Source: Ruminococcus flavefaciens
GTDB taxonomy: Bacteria; Bacillota; Clostridia; Oscillospirales; Ruminococcaceae
Assembly (NCBI GenBank): GCA_023663905.1
Contig: JAMPGO010000007.1
Coordinates: 1 to 44,204 of the forward strand
Reading direction: 5' to 3'
Length of the DNA: 44,204 bases
In this document: piece by piece, positions 29,819 to 38,109 of the stretch
Layout of the letters: the number at the start of each line of letters is the position of its first letter
Position numbering within the stretch: position 1 is the first letter of the stretch
Program-made: the position numbers and the translations under genes
The notes under the pieces: generated by a model
What the model was told of the DNA's origin: nothing
The model's input: only the letters and a program-made list of their open reading frames with translations
Databases searched by the model: none

Positions 29819-30415
29819 ATGGTAAAGATAAATGAAGCTATTATAGTAGAGGGCAAATACGACAAAATCAAGCTTTCGTCGATTATTGACGCTGTAATTA
29901 TAGTCACGAACGGCTTCGGGATTTTTAAGGATTCCGAAAAGCTGGAGCTTATAAGGTACTATGCACGGAAAACAGGGATTATTATTCTTACTGATTCCGA
30001 CAGCGCAGGCAGAAAAATACGTGGATATATCAAGGGCGCAGTGGACGGCAACATAAAGAATGTTCATATTCCCGACATCTTCGGCAAGGAAAAACGCAAG
30101 AGAACGGCTTCGGCAGAGGGCAAGCTCGGAGTTGAGGGAATTGATGTTGACGTGCTTCTGTCCGCTTTTGAAAAGGCAGGGATAACATCGGGCGAGAGGA
30201 CTGCACCGCCTGATATAACGAAGCTGACATTGTATGAACTCGGTCTGAGCGGAGGAAATAACAGCAGTATTCTGCGGAAAAAGCTCCAGAAATCGCTTGA
30301 ACTTCCGTCGCTTCTCTCCGCAGGCGCATTGCTGGAGATACTCAATACGATGATGACGGCGGAGGAACTTGCCGTTAAAGTCCGTGAATTAGAGGAGACA
30401 GATTATGGTATATAG
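29819..30415 (+). CDS. RNase M5-like Toprim protein
   Basis: A 198-aa Toprim-domain protein. The catalytic Glu is in EAIIVEGKYDKIKL and the DxD in ILTDSDSAGRKIRGYI, within residues 1-115. The C-terminal part (TLYELGLSGGNNSSILRKKL) is the small helical domain seen in RNase M5 relatives. RNase M5 matures 5S rRNA. This clostridial branch is diverged from Bacillus RnmV, so the substrate is a reasoned guess. GGAGG precedes the ATG. It overlaps the MBOAT gene by 11 bases. Confidence 0.78.
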   Translation: MVKINEAIIVEGKYDKIKLSSIIDAVIIVTNGFGIFKDSEKLELIRYYARKTGIIILTDSDSAGRKIRGYIKGAVDGNIKNVHIPDIFGKEKRKRTASAEGKLGVEGIDVDVLLSAFEKAGITSGERTAPPDITKLTLYELGLSGGNNSSILRKKLQKSLELPSLLSAGALLEILNTMMTAEELAVKVRELEETDYGI

Positions 30416-31796
30416 CAGTCTGCTGTTTATATACGGCTTTTTCCCCATATCTCTTGCAATATATTACTTCACACCGAAAAAGTTAAAAGATATATCGCTG
30501 TTTGTCCTGAGTATGATTTTCTGTGGGCTGTTCAGCCTGAAATTTCTTTTTTTTATGCTGATTTACACCGCCGTGAATTATACCTCGGCACGCTTCACGT
30601 ACAATCTCAAGTGGAAGGAATCGAAATACGGAAAATTCAGCAGTATACCTTTTACGGCAGGAATTATATTCGATATTGTATCGCTCCTTGCATTCAGGAC
30701 GGAGTTTTTTTCGTGGATTCAGAAGCCGTTCAGCTTCCCCGACGGCTTCTTTCCGATAGGAATATCGCTGTTTACGCTCTCGGCAACAGGCTATCTTATT
30801 GACATATACAAAGGCAGAATCAGGGCGGAAATTAATTTTATACGGTTCGGGCTGTTTATAATGATGTTCCCACGTCTCCTGCTTGGTCCTGTCGTAAGCT
30901 ATGATAATTTTATAAAAATACTGAGGAAGCGCAGAATCAGGCTCAGCGAACTCGGCAACGGTATGGAGCTTTTTGTTAAAGGTCTCGCCAAAAAAGTCAT
31001 AGTCGCCGATACGCTTTTTATGCTGTATTCCGCAATAAGAAGCATTGATATAAAAAATCTTCCCGTCGTCACAGCCTGGCTCGGAGTTATTGCGTATATG
31101 TTGTGCCTTTATTTCACGCTCTCGGGTATTTCAGATATGGGGTGCGGAATCTCGTACTGTTTCGGATTCAGATTTCCGCAGAGCTTCAACTACCCTGTAT
31201 TCAGCAGTAGAATCCGCTATTTTTCGGCGAAATGGCATATACAGATTGTACACTGGTTCAGAAAATATGCCGTCCAGCCGTTCCGCTCGGTGATAAATGC
31301 AAAGTACATCAACGGCTTTATATCAGTAAGCGTGTGGACTCTTCTGGGCTTGTGGTACGGATTCAGTGCAGGAAGTACGCTGTGGGGACTGCTTATGGGT
31401 CTCGCCGTTATCATCGAGGGCAGAATCAAGAATATTAAAATGCTGAAATCAACAGGAATAATTTACACTTTTCTGGCAACAACAATTCTGATGACGTTTC
31501 TTTCGTGCGGAAGCATAGGCGATTCGTTCCGCTATATATGGGCAATGCTTGGCGGAAACAGGATATTTGCCGATTCGCTCACGTCGTATCTTGTAAAATC
31601 ATATATAATAATTCTGCTGACGGCTATGTATATGGCTACGGACTTATTCAGGAACACGGTAAACAGGATAAACAGAACACGTTTCAGAATCGTGGTATCA
31701 GTATTGTCGCCCGTTATTCTTGTCATCCTGTTCGCCGTATGCACATCGCTTATCTCATACACAGGAAGCTCGGAAAATATATTGATACAGCTGTAG
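30405..31796 (+). CDS. MBOAT (AlgI/DltB-like) membrane protein with altered catalytic His
   Basis: A 463-aa polytopic protein of the membrane-bound O-acyltransferase family, which normally moves acyl groups from the cytosol onto extracellular polymers. Visible are GPVVSYDNF, the conserved KWHIQIVHWFRKY (H278 kept) and the GLWHG site, which here reads GLWYG, with Tyr at residue 318 (codon TAC, 31356-31358). That His is essential in AlgI and DltB relatives. The spans and partner gene are intact, so this looks like a maintained but catalytically altered protein. The start lies within the end of the upstream gene, with GAGGAG nearby. Confidence 0.85.
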   Translation: MVYSSLLFIYGFFPISLAIYYFTPKKLKDISLFVLSMIFCGLFSLKFLFFMLIYTAVNYTSARFTYNLKWKESKYGKFSSIPFTAGIIFDIVSLLAFRTEFFSWIQKPFSFPDGFFPIGISLFTLSATGYLIDIYKGRIRAEINFIRFGLFIMMFPRLLLGPVVSYDNFIKILRKRRIRLSELGNGMELFVKGLAKKVIVADTLFMLYSAIRSIDIKNLPVVTAWLGVIAYMLCLYFTLSGISDMGCGISYCFGFRFPQSFNYPVFSSRIRYFSAKWHIQIVHWFRKYAVQPFRSVINAKYINGFISVSVWTLLGLWYGFSAGSTLWGLLMGLAVIIEGRIKNIKMLKSTGIIYTFLATTILMTFLSCGSIGDSFRYIWAMLGGNRIFADSLTSYLVKSYIIILLTAMYMATDLFRNTVNRINRTRFRIVVSVLSPVILVILFAVCTSLISYTGSSENILIQL

Positions 31797-31805
31797 GAGG
31801 ACTGA

Positions 31806-32903
31806 ATGAAAAATTCAAATAAAATATCGGCGCTGATATTGTTTATATTTATCCTGTCGTTTTCGGTTATGACAATATCCGGGCTTGGTGATAAATCGGC
31901 GGAAAATCTTACAATAAGCAGGCAGGATTTTCTTGACGGCGGATTTGGCAGACAGCTTACTTCTGTGACTGCTGAATGCTTTGCGGGAAGAGACTACTGG
32001 ATTTCGGCAGGTGCAGGGCTGGAATCGGGGCTGTGCGAGAGTATCGTGAACGGCGTATATATTTCCAAAGACAGGCTTCTTTCAGCCGATGTTTCGGAAC
32101 GTAGGAGTACAGATAATACTGTTCAGGCGGTGAATGAATTTGTAAAAAGCTATGACGGAGCGGTATATTTCGTTGCCGTTCCGACATCTTCGGGAGTTTA
32201 CGGAAATATGCTTCCGTCGTATCTTCTTAAATCGACCGAAAAACAGCAGATTGACAGCCTCTATATGAATCTCAGCTCCGATATACGGAAGATTGACGCA
32301 TATAATATCCTTAAAATGCTCAGCGATAACTATATTTACTACAGAAGCGATTCAAAGTGGACGAGTTACGGCGCATTCTGCGTGTACAGAACGGTTATTC
32401 AGAAGCTCGGCTTTATACCTGTTTCGTATGATAAATACACTGTCGAGCATATCACGAGCAGTTATACGGGAAATCTTTACAGCAGGACAAAATATATGGA
32501 ATCGAAGCCCGATTTGCTTGATATTTACGAATACTCGGGCGGAGCTGAAATAACGGATTGCACAGGCTATGACAACAACGGAATGACCTATCCGGGAAGT
32601 CTCTACGACAGGGAAGCCATAGAATCGGATGATATGTACCGTCTTTATCTCGGCGAAAAACTGCCTGTTGTCAGGATAAACACGGATATAAACAACAACA
32701 AGAAACTGCTGGTAATCGGCGACGACTATGCAGTCTGCTTCATACCGTTTCTTACACAGCACTACAGCGAGATTGCATTTGTTTCGCCCGAATGTATGGA
32801 AAAGGAGCTGAATAAGTTTCTTAATCCCGACGACTACGGGCAGATGCTTTTTCTCTTCGGGATTGATTCGCTTGACGACGATATTTTTAGTTATATGAGG
32901 TGA
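31806..32903 (+). CDS. DHHW/AlgJ-like exported protein with destroyed catalytic triad
   Basis: A 365-aa protein with an N-terminal signal anchor (about 7-24) and a SGNH-like domain of the DHHW/AlgX-AlgJ type, the usual extracytoplasmic partner of an MBOAT. The signature that reads D-H-H-W in the family is DSKW here (182-185), so His is replaced by Lys184. The nucleophile motif, normally DS(Y/F), is GDDYAVCFIPFL with Asp at 307. Only the triad Asp remains. The surrounding fold (VYFVAVPTSSGVYGNMLP, KWTSYGAF) is well kept. AGGAGG precedes the ATG, and the gene follows the MBOAT gene by 9 bases. Confidence 0.82.
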   Translation: MKNSNKISALILFIFILSFSVMTISGLGDKSAENLTISRQDFLDGGFGRQLTSVTAECFAGRDYWISAGAGLESGLCESIVNGVYISKDRLLSADVSERRSTDNTVQAVNEFVKSYDGAVYFVAVPTSSGVYGNMLPSYLLKSTEKQQIDSLYMNLSSDIRKIDAYNILKMLSDNYIYYRSDSKWTSYGAFCVYRTVIQKLGFIPVSYDKYTVEHITSSYTGNLYSRTKYMESKPDLLDIYEYSGGAEITDCTGYDNNGMTYPGSLYDREAIESDDMYRLYLGEKLPVVRINTDINNNKKLLVIGDDYAVCFIPFLTQHYSEIAFVSPECMEKELNKFLNPDDYGQMLFLFGIDSLDDDIFSYMR

Positions 32904-35483: not shown

Positions 35484-35512
35484 TGGACAAGCTATGAATT
35501 ATATGATATAAT
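35484..35512 (+). promoter_or_regulatory. Sigma-A promoter for the GTPase-Rae1 fusion gene
   Basis: TGGACA (35484-35489) and TATAAT (35507-35512) are 17 bases apart. Transcription would start near 35519, leaving about 30 bases before the ATG. That leader is too short for the attenuator usually found ahead of tet(M). Confidence 0.85.
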
Positions 35513-35547
35513 GTATTATTATAATAATTTGTGCGGAGTGAGATACA

Positions 35548-38109
35548 ATGGGGTCAAAAAATATAACAATAGGAATCACAGCTCACGTAGATTCGGGAAA
35601 AACAACTCTTGCCGAAGCTATGCTGTATAAAACGGGGCAGATACGTAAGCTGGGACGTGTTGACAACGGAAATTCGTTTCTTGATACGGATTCGATTGAA
35701 ATGGACAGAGGAATCACGATTTTTTCAAGTCAGGCGGAATTTAATGCGGGCGGTACTCACATAACACTGCTTGATACACCGGGTCACGTTGATTTTTCGG
35801 CGGAAACCGAGCGGACAATGCGTGTGCTTGATTATGCCGTGCTTGTCATAAGCGGTACGGACGTTGTGCAGAGCCATACCTCAACGCTGTGGAAGCTTCT
35901 GAGGAAATACGAGATACCTGTTTTTATTTTTGTAAATAAAATGGACTTGACAGGTGCGGACAAGGGCTTTATACTTGAAAAGCTGAGAACACAGCTATCG
36001 GAGAGGTGTACCGACTTTTCCGATACCGACAGCATTCCCGAAAATACCGCACTGTGCGATGAAGATTTGATGAACATTTTTCTGGACGGCGAGCTATCTG
36101 ATTCAGATATAGTGCGTGCGATTTCACAGAGGAGGATTTTTCCGTGCTTTTTTGGTTCGGCACTTAAAATAAACGGCATTGACGAGTTTATTTCAGGGCT
36201 TGACAGATACACTGCCGAGCCTGAGCGCTACGACGATTTCGGGCTTAAAGTCTACAAAATATCCTACGACAGCAAGGGAACACGTCTCACGCACCTGAAA
36301 GTAATGGGCGGTGAACTGAAAGTCCGCAGTGAGCTGACATACAGGACAGCGGACGGCGAGGAGGTGACTAATAAAATCAGCTCCGTAAGATTCTATTCAG
36401 GCGAAAAATTCAGGACGGCGGAAGTTGCTTGTGCAGGCGAAGTATGTGCAGTAACAGGGCTTGACGGCACATATTCGGGGCAGGGCATAGGCTGTATCAG
36501 GAACTCCGACAGGGCAGTTTTAGAGCCTGTTATGACATACCGTGTTGAGATACCGCAGGAGAAGAACATCTACGAGGCGCTTAAGGATATGCGACAGCTT
36601 GAAGATACCGACCCACAGCTTCATATTGTGTGGAACGAGCAGTTAAGGGAAATACATATCCAGCTTATGGGCGCAGTACAGATTGAAGTGCTGAGCCGTA
36701 TAATAGAAGAGAAATACGGCTATCCCGTTGTTTTCGGAAGCGGTGCGGTTGCATACAAGGAGACGGTTGCAGGTATTACGGAGGGTGTGGGTCACTACGA
36801 ACCGCTCCGCCACTATGCGGAAGTACATCTTCTTATTGAACCGCTTCCACGCAACAGCGGATTGCAGTTTGATACGGCGGTTTCGGAAGATAAGCTTGAC
36901 CGCAACTGGCAGAGACTTATTTTATCTCATCTTGAGGAAAAAACGCATATCGGAGTGCTTACGGGTTCGCCGATAACGGATATGAAGATAACGCTTATGT
37001 CGGGCAAGGCACATCTAAAGCACACAGAGGGCGGAGACTTTCGGCAGGCGACTTACAGGGCGGTACGTCAGGGACTGAGGAGTGCGGAAAGCGTGCTGTT
37101 AGAGCCTTACTATGACTATGAGCTTGAAATACCGTCGGAATACGTTGGACGAGCCATATCGGATTTACAGCGTATGTCAGCGGAGTTCAGTACGCCCGAG
37201 ACTTTCGGAGAAATGTCGTTAATCAAGGGTTCTGCACCTGTTGCCGAGCTTAGCGACTATCAGGCGGAGGTAATCAGCTACACGAGAGGCAAGGGCAGAA
37301 TATCGTGCGTAAACAGCGGTTACAGGGAATGCCACAATGCCGACGAAATAATTGAGCTGATTGGTTACGACTGCGACGGCGATGTAAATAACAGTGCGGA
37401 TTCGGTTTTTTGCAGTCACGGAGCAGGAATGAATGTGAAGTGGAATGAAGTCCCCGATTATATGCACCTGCCGTCCTGCCTTGAACCCGAGAGGGAAGAG
37501 CCTGAGCAGAAAGTGCGCCGTTTTGTTGAAAGAGCGGTATCAGATAAAGAGCTTATGGAGATTTTTGAACGCACATACGGCAAGATAGACCGTGAGCCGA
37601 GAAAAGCATTTAAATCCGTGAAAGTCAAATCGGATTACAGCAAGCCTGTCAAGCTTCCCGAATACAGCGGTTCGGACTATCTGCTTGTTGACGGCTATAA
37701 CATTATATTTGCGTGGGACGAGCTGAAAAAGATAGCGGACAGAAATCTTGATGACGCAAGGGTAGAGCTGGCGAAGATAATGTGCAACTATCAGGGCTAT
37801 ACGGGCTATGAAATTATACTTGTGTTCGACGCATACAGGGTGAAACGCAATCACAGGGACGTTGAGAAATACTATAATATAAACATCGTGTACACGAAGG
37901 AGTGCGAAACGGCTGATACATATATTGAATGCACAAGTCACGAGCTTGTCAGGAAGCACCGTGTGCGTGTGGCGACTTCCGACGGAGCTGAGCAGATGAT
38001 TATTCTCGGCAACGGTGCTATGCGTATTTCCGCAAGCGAACTCCATAAGCGTGTGGACGATATGAACAGGGCGATTAGTGAATTTATTGACATAAATAAG
38101 TTAAAATAA
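35548..38109 (+). CDS. Tet(M)-type ribosomal GTPase fused to a Rae1/YacP NYN endonuclease domain
   Basis: An 853-aa fusion. Residues 1 to about 600 are an EF-G-like translation factor of the tetracycline ribosomal-protection group: G1 AHVDSGKT (12-19), DRGITI, G3 DTPGHVDF (from 76), G4 NKMD (130-133), then domains II-V with the domain IV loop MSAEFSTPETFGEM. After a charged linker, residues about 708-853 form a NYN/PIN-like domain matching Rae1 (YacP): LLVDGYNIIFAWDELK, LVFDAYRVK, ECETADTYIE, VATSDGAEQ, with acidic residues D715, D761, D790 and D812 kept. Rae1 cuts mRNA in the ribosomal A site, so the fusion could combine A-site entry with A-site cleavage. Ribosomal-protection proteins alone are about 640 aa. 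Confidence 0.88.
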   Translation: MGSKNITIGITAHVDSGKTTLAEAMLYKTGQIRKLGRVDNGNSFLDTDSIEMDRGITIFSSQAEFNAGGTHITLLDTPGHVDFSAETERTMRVLDYAVLVISGTDVVQSHTSTLWKLLRKYEIPVFIFVNKMDLTGADKGFILEKLRTQLSERCTDFSDTDSIPENTALCDEDLMNIFLDGELSDSDIVRAISQRRIFPCFFGSALKINGIDEFISGLDRYTAEPERYDDFGLKVYKISYDSKGTRLTHLKVMGGELKVRSELTYRTADGEEVTNKISSVRFYSGEKFRTAEVACAGEVCAVTGLDGTYSGQGIGCIRNSDRAVLEPVMTYRVEIPQEKNIYEALKDMRQLEDTDPQLHIVWNEQLREIHIQLMGAVQIEVLSRIIEEKYGYPVVFGSGAVAYKETVAGITEGVGHYEPLRHYAEVHLLIEPLPRNSGLQFDTAVSEDKLDRNWQRLILSHLEEKTHIGVLTGSPITDMKITLMSGKAHLKHTEGGDFRQATYRAVRQGLRSAESVLLEPYYDYELEIPSEYVGRAISDLQRMSAEFSTPETFGEMSLIKGSAPVAELSDYQAEVISYTRGKGRISCVNSGYRECHNADEIIELIGYDCDGDVNNSADSVFCSHGAGMNVKWNEVPDYMHLPSCLEPEREEPEQKVRRFVERAVSDKELMEIFERTYGKIDREPRKAFKSVKVKSDYSKPVKLPEYSGSDYLLVDGYNIIFAWDELKKIADRNLDDARVELAKIMCNYQGYTGYEIILVFDAYRVKRNHRDVEKYYNINIVYTKECETADTYIECTSHELVRKHRVRVATSDGAEQMIILGNGAMRISASELHKRVDDMNRAISEFIDINKLK

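Follow-up and report, generated by a model that had tools for sequence, protein, structure and literature searches.

What is an mRNA-cutting nuclease doing on the end of a GTPase that resembles tetracycline-resistance proteins? The question is raised by a gene at 35548..38109 (+) of a 44,204-nucleotide stretch of Ruminococcus flavefaciens DNA (assembly GCA_023663905.1, contig JAMPGO010000007.1; 'the window' is this whole stretch), in which a translational GTPase runs in one frame into an NYN-type nuclease matching Rae1, also called YacP. We think it probable that this gene is its lineage's Rae1, an endonuclease that cuts messenger RNA (mRNA) in a ribosome-dependent way and comes with an EF-G/Tet-like GTPase of its own; in many gut clostridia this fusion seems to have taken over from the usual stand-alone Rae1. 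We favour this reading because both domains are intact, the tree of nucleases is most simply read as one fusion origin, fused and stand-alone forms were not seen together, and the native rae1 is gone, or in one case decayed, in fusion carriers that keep its old locus. The architecture itself is not new: one sentence of Atkinson 2015 (PMC4342817) reports a Tet-like GTPase joined to a YacP NYN domain in ten clostridial species, and the window gene, with the same domains in one frame, is a further member of that clostridial Tet-YacP fusion. What differs from that account is that the GTPase here belongs to a separate subfamily and that the fusion stands in for Rae1. A non-exhaustive search of the literature on Rae1, YacP, NYN and the annotation name, outside which the two main Rae1 papers, among them a 2018 survey of Rae1 distribution, may themselves discuss the fusion, found no published test of such a protein, and the literature searched yielded neither prior evidence that it serves as a lineage's Rae1 nor a report of a decayed native copy.

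The frame, whose coordinates include the stop codon, encodes 853 amino acids with no internal stops and follows a likely ribosome-binding site, GGAG, read in the sequence at 35535..35538 (+), 9 nucleotides 5′ of the ATG. A first-pass annotation, made from the letters alone, had read it as a complete GTPase with G1, G3 and G4 motifs followed by a Rae1-type NYN domain with four acidic residues in the expected places, and profile and structure-database searches bear this out for both halves. On the same strand, the G domain (residues 5-222, 35560..36213; Pfam GTP_EFTU, E 1.5e-47) has all three motifs intact, as do 52/52 fused proteins examined, and is followed by EF-G-like domains II and III (residues 232-396, 36241..36735; Pfam EF-G_D2 and EFG_III slightly below cut-off, and a TetO match), domain IV (residues 400-513, 36745..37086; Pfam EFG_IV) and domain V (residues 516-597, 37093..37338; Pfam EFG_C). 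A search of PDB sequences matches residues 4-593 to TetO (4v6v, E 5e-72). Beyond domain V come a C-terminal extension (residues 598-641, 37339..37470) recognized by alignment with unfused relatives, a linker (residues 642-709, 37471..37674) and the nuclease domain (residues 710-847, 37675..38088). Pfam NYN_YacP matches residues 712-847 with an E-value of 1.7e-47 and 162 bits, against a cut-off of 24.6; residues 710-845 match Bacillus subtilis YacP/Rae1 (5mq9/5mq8) at E 7e-25 when the full protein is the query, and the nuclease part searched alone reaches E 2.8e-26. The four acidic residues align with those of Rae1: D715 (37690..37692, +) with D7, D761 (37828..37830, +) with D53, D790 (37915..37917, +) with D81 and D812 (37981..37983, +) with D104, the Rae1 numbers being counted from our alignment. 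All four are invariant in 61/61 fused and 38/38 stand-alone NYN domains aligned.

Two separate genes joined by error can be rejected, since the fusion recurs in long frames well beyond this assembly, as the survey of the architecture that the first-pass annotation had proposed makes plain. We searched a class sample of 156 genomes, the window's own included, and an overlapping phylum sample of 398. In the class sample, 104 genomes have an NYN_YacP match over the cut-off, exactly one each: 56 in a frame of at least 700 amino acids (the window's own counted; those of G489 and G498 cut or broken), 47 in a frame of at most 216 amino acids, and one in a broken frame (G473). A second match in G543 was set aside as a chance hit, being below the cut-off in a frame that by eye resembles an Lrp-type regulator. 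Among 23 genomes of the same genus, 18 hold the fusion in one open frame of at least 855 amino acids (that of G401 with a stop inside the matched span); of the other five, G406 has it in two overlapping frames, G413 and G418 have contig-end pieces, and G412 and G419 have none. We also inspected named loci, including those of Ruminococcus flavefaciens, Monoglobus, Intestinimonas and Oscillibacter. Among the best 80 of 596 by match to a fused query, the nuclease motif shares the frame of the GTPase in 79, a figure which speaks to the reality of the architecture and not to its frequency, as the loci were ranked by that very match; in the remaining one (L197, at a contig end) the motif was not found in that frame, though the match spans the nuclease.

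Fused and stand-alone forms were never seen together. None of the 156 class genomes carries both, where 16.9 would be expected if the two were independent, an expectation that ignores kinship, and at least three families (f171, f172 and f176) each have both states, in different genomes. In the phylum sample, 219 of the 398 genomes match NYN_YacP, 215 of them over the cut-off and at least 22 fused among the matches listed; again none of the 219 was seen with both forms, and 217 have a single match. The exceptions are G300, with two contig-end fragments, and G205, with two stand-alone copies. Those two copies (L273 and L275) have equal scores on different contigs and are perhaps an assembly duplicate. 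Like B. subtilis Rae1, with which it shares the NYN domain and the four acidic residues, the nuclease is single-copy in almost every genome sampled. The genome from which the window comes has no NYN_YacP match besides the fusion.

In a tree of NYN domains, 61 fused sequences lie on one side of a branch and 38 stand-alone sequences on the other (support 100/99; the stand-alone rows are 38 of the 39 best-scoring loci, L013 being left out), and this split occurs in all 200 bootstrap trees examined. A single fusion origin is the simplest reading of that topology. Stand-alone rae1 has a characteristic address: rlmB and sigH both flank 34 of the 38, and one of the two flanks the other four. The window's fused gene is not located between rlmB and sigH, and it differs from B. 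subtilis Rae1 in this, in riding on a GTPase and in lacking the C-terminal tail. What, then, has become of the old locus where the fusion is present? We looked at rlmB in two sets of fusion carriers, the second taking about 1.5 kilobases on each side, with some contigs ending there, so that sigH may be missed. The two flanking genes are still adjacent in 7/12 of the first set and 10/29 of the second, and in none of these 17 carriers does the gap hold an intact rae1; for the remaining 24, the stretch beside rlmB showed no sigH. In the closed genome G455 the gap holds a decayed rae1 (L176:4602-5184). Its DNA is 68.0% identical over 469 nucleotides (E 8e-42) to the intact rae1 between rlmB and sigH of the same-genus genome G480, yet each forward frame has 15-17 stops, and the best protein bit score is 69.7, whereas 200 mononucleotide shuffles gave no more than 18.9. 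This one genome provides direct evidence that the native gene decays in the presence of the fusion. The other 16 carriers have no rae1 there, bar a possible remnant in G522 (L288:2230-2322), a weak match of 31 amino acids at E 1e-4. Two weak NYN matches in L180 of G450 (E 0.002 and 2e-4) lie outside the rlmB-sigH gap.

Could the protein instead protect ribosomes from tetracycline or another A-site antibiotic, with the added ribonuclease (RNase) contributing to resistance? Atkinson 2015 (PMC4342817), which calls the fusions Tet proteins whose resistance may act through RNase action, raises the idea, and Tet is indeed the nearest named family of the GTPase. The window protein shares with Tet(M), Tet(O) and Tet(W) a five-domain EF-G-like plan, the absence of EF-G tip loop I and a loop III that aligns without gaps. 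It scores 413.8 bits on the NCBIfam Tet model (NF012153), however, far below the cut-off of 775 that three canonical Tet-type proteins from sampled genomes pass (819, 853 and 1001 bits). It was the only fused protein scored; a more distant Tet-like protein, L152, is also below the cut-off at 606 bits, and two unfused relatives of the fused GTPases score 413.4 and 422. The protein is 30-33% identical to Tet-like proteins of 643-644 amino acids, carries the extra C-terminal extension, and groups with the other fused GTPases and their unfused relatives in a clade separate from Tet proteins (support 100).

Loop III of domain IV points the same way. At residues 486-499 (37003..37044, +; located by sequence alignment) the window protein reads GKAHLKHTEGGDFR, unlike the YSPVSTPADFR of Tet and the YHEVDSSEMAF of EF-G. 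The pattern HxKHTxGG is present in 47/52 fused and 12/13 unfused proteins, and the YSPVS tip in none of either (0/52 and 0/13), against 7/12 in the Tet comparison set. The missing tip is not decisive, since Tet(M) stays active after replacement of S508, P509 and V510 if the loop conformation holds (PMC4750697). The EF-G domain-IV motifs GGxGQY (loop I) and YHxVDS (loop III) occur in 0/52 fused proteins and 3/3 EF-G rows; with EF-G cut-offs not reached either, an ordinary EF-G is rejected. An ordinary Tet gene is likewise rejected by family score, tree and loop III, all of them criteria read from sequence. Of the first-pass assignment to an EF-G/Tet(M)-type GTPase, the EF-G/Tet-like part with its intact motifs thus stands, whereas the strict Tet(M) type does not fit the score or the loop.

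The distribution of the gene also speaks against a resistance role. The fusion is present whole or in pieces in 21/23 same-genus genomes, it takes the place of Rae1, and Tet-like genes of 643-644 amino acids exist besides it in G470, G556, G065 and G131; those of G556 and G065 that were scored pass the Tet cut-off. The 23 named loci compared have no common neighbourhood: L189 and L193 have five neighbours in common, a few other pairs a single gene, and no gene family turns up in more than a pair. Of 72,556 plasmid records searched, two (Monoglobus and Agathobacter) cover more than 80% of the fused stretch, both typed as non-mobilizable, and three matches on viral contigs are partial, in frames without the nuclease motif. 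With this and the lack of a shared neighbourhood, we reject a mobile resistance element. Just upstream of the fused gene on the Agathobacter rectalis plasmid lies a BrnT toxin gene (L271:4070-4357), with a CopG antitoxin gene next to it. Altogether, we consider antibiotic protection assisted by the nuclease very unlikely as an account of the gene, and the fused protein probably has another main role than protection from tetracycline.

The unfused relatives bear on another alternative, namely that two activities merely share one chain, an accessory elongation or rescue GTPase and an ordinary Rae1 joined for co-expression only. These relatives, of the 'translation factor GTPase' kind and including one on Ligilactobacillus salivarius plasmid pMP118, belong to the same subfamily and mostly have HxKHTxGG and the 44-residue extension common to fused and unfused GTPases. 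They end at or just past MH, the last motif of that extension, where the fused proteins continue into linker and nuclease. Four genomes of a single family (G549, G487, G529 and G565) have such a GTPase together with a stand-alone Rae1, and four other genomes have one but no NYN_YacP match; the linker, besides, is poorly conserved (33.9% over residues 642-708). Domain IV is the best conserved part: 50 fused relatives are on average 75.6% identical to the window protein there, as against 59.8% in the G domain. The linker nevertheless keeps its length, at 73-105 amino acids in the 43 sequences measured of 51 (the pattern used was missed in the other eight), and it keeps one conserved motif. Most fused forms have also lost the Rae1 tail, which suggests dependence on the GTPase. 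We therefore regard joining for co-expression alone as unlikely.

The linker motif, DKELMEIFERTYG (37543-37581, residues 666-678), is almost invariant in the 51-sequence alignment of fused proteins and weaker in the wider set of 52, where E668 is found in 47 and I672 in 43; it is absent from the nine unfused GTPases aligned. One genome with an unfused GTPase, G529, has two copies (L147 and L148) plus a stand-alone Rae1. On pMP118 the unfused gene (L272:3170-5561) adjoins a plasmid-borne rpsN, for ribosomal protein S14, and carries a tetracycline-resistance label (TetM/TetW/TetO/TetS). Three further unfused members (L267, L268 and L269) come from viral-classified contigs, which may be the edges of prophages or host DNA under a wrong label.

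The two GTPase trees differ on the unfused proteins. In a first tree with 52 fused rows, built without L267, L268 and L272, the fused proteins form one side with weak support (75). In a second of 44 chosen rows (26 fused, 13 unfused and 5 Tet, with EF-G and the two longest Tet branches left out), L267 and L268 from viral contigs and L272 from L. salivarius nest within the fused clade, which suggests that these three may have lost the nuclease. An approximately unbiased (AU) test rejects neither an all-fused group (p = 0.208) nor an all-unfused group (p = 0.287), so the unfused GTPases may be ancestral or may be products of nuclease loss.

The missing tail was followed through the samples. Position 159 of the 166 in the NYN_YacP profile is reached by 47/47 stand-alone matches and 21/56 fused ones (Fisher p = 5e-13, kinship not corrected; the contig-edge row G498 is set aside and the broken G473 kept, and of the 21, G065 gets there only past a stop). 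The window match ends at position 138, or 146 if run past the stop. The tail contains R166 of B. subtilis Rae1, and R166P was isolated among loss-of-function suppressors (PMC6613710). If the GTPase has taken over docking, as we infer, most fused nucleases could have dropped the tail for that reason.

A further alternative keeps the ribosome but changes the target: the nuclease might cut the ribosomal RNA (rRNA) or transfer RNA (tRNA) of particular ribosomes, in quality control or shutdown, instead of A-site mRNA. NYN/PIN-type nucleases include rRNA and tRNA cutters, and a tether of this length would let the domain reach several ribosomal sites. An rRNA RNase activity is also what Atkinson proposes (PMC4342817). 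That the nuclease clade replaces Rae1, an mRNA A-site nuclease, genome by genome argues against a different substrate, and we judge rRNA or tRNA cutting decidedly unlikely.

The first-pass annotation had suggested a factor that enters stalled or drug-blocked ribosomes and cleaves the mRNA, or that places the nuclease by means of the GTPase, a reading that finds support in part. If the fused protein is this lineage's Rae1, delivery, substrate and GTP coupling can be inferred as follows. In the manner of Tet proteins, the GTPase would bind ribosomes whose A site is empty, with domain IV probing the decoding site; GTP hydrolysis would then withdraw the GTPase, which would leave first, and the nuclease, on its tether of about 73-105 residues, would enter the A site and cut the mRNA there. 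Such a cut would set off breakdown of the message and clear the A site for rescue, and the GTPase would do the docking that stand-alone Rae1 does for itself. RelE-type nucleases, whose fold is unrelated to that of Rae1, share this A-site mRNA cutting and have no GTPase. In published work, RelE-type nucleases and Rae1 are both described as cutting mRNA in the A site, which is thereby freed for transfer-messenger RNA (PMC12320835), and Tet proteins, which occupy the same site, appear to depend on GTP hydrolysis for their release (PMC8161019). A bolder version, which we put forward tentatively and find possible but doubtful, is a one-chain no-go decay factor timed by GTP, in which the GTPase recognizes a stalled ribosome whose A site is empty, and hydrolysis acts as the switch that pulls domain IV back and lets the tethered nuclease cut the A-site codon. 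Were it true, ordinary Rae1 would have been displaced across much of the gut Clostridia by a factor that hands the ribosome to rescue, and a translational GTPase may be a partner of stand-alone Rae1 too.

Several observations weigh against taking the fusion as the lineage's Rae1. Exclusivity comes in part from shared ancestry, and the window's genome is 82% complete, so that the absence of a second rae1 there is no proof. Of the 156 class genomes, 52 have neither Rae1 form, and neither does the same-genus G412, which is 95% complete; as some relatives manage with neither, a Rae1-type function is dispensable. Unfused GTPases in genomes without any NYN_YacP match (G482, G457, G459 and G495) mean that the GTPase has some use alone. 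Within the nuclease, R826 is arginine in only 29/61 fused domains, the window's among them, against 38/38 stand-alone ones. Lastly, domain IV and a docked Rae1 would compete for space in the A site, which makes the order of events proposed above a guess.

That Rae1 has been joined to a translational GTPase while the old rae1 was decaying or gone suggests that both jobs belong together; the fusion would allow this idea, which bears on how Rae1 finds and enters the A site, to be examined within one protein. There is a practical side as well: among the proteins that carry a 'tetracycline resistance' label in common gut bacteria, some probably serve as housekeeping factors of RNA decay, and counts of resistance genes are affected accordingly. 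The first-pass annotation had anticipated that automatic labels would hide the nuclease, and RefSeq labels of two fused proteins do name the GTPase only, that of Agathobacter rectalis as 'TetM/TetW/TetO/TetS family tetracycline resistance ribosomal protection protein' and that of Monoglobus as 'translation factor GTPase family protein'.

Upstream, the fused gene starts 84 bases after the preceding gene. We found no terminator-like site between 35300 and 38300, and Rfam matched nothing in the window; with so short a gap, we see no sign of a tet(M)-style attenuator, in agreement with the earlier reading. When upstream stretches of nine same-genus copies are placed in rough register, mean column identity is 34% and no leader is conserved. 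The sigma-A promoter also claimed for the gene is plausible: a promoter-like site at 35484..35512 (+), TGGACA-17-TATAAT with TG preceding the second hexamer, agrees with the consensus at 11/12 positions, and both hexamers are also visible 5′ of the same-genus copy L034. This is a consensus match, and by itself the scan is little proof, since the 3-kilobase region holds seven promoter-like sites against 5.0 (standard deviation 2.2) in shuffles. Its upstream neighbour is the sporulation gene yunB, and downstream it is followed by an oxaloacetate decarboxylase cluster. Elsewhere in the window, at 30405-32903, an MBOAT acyltransferase is followed by a DHHW/AlgX-like protein, perhaps a pair for polysaccharide O-acetylation.

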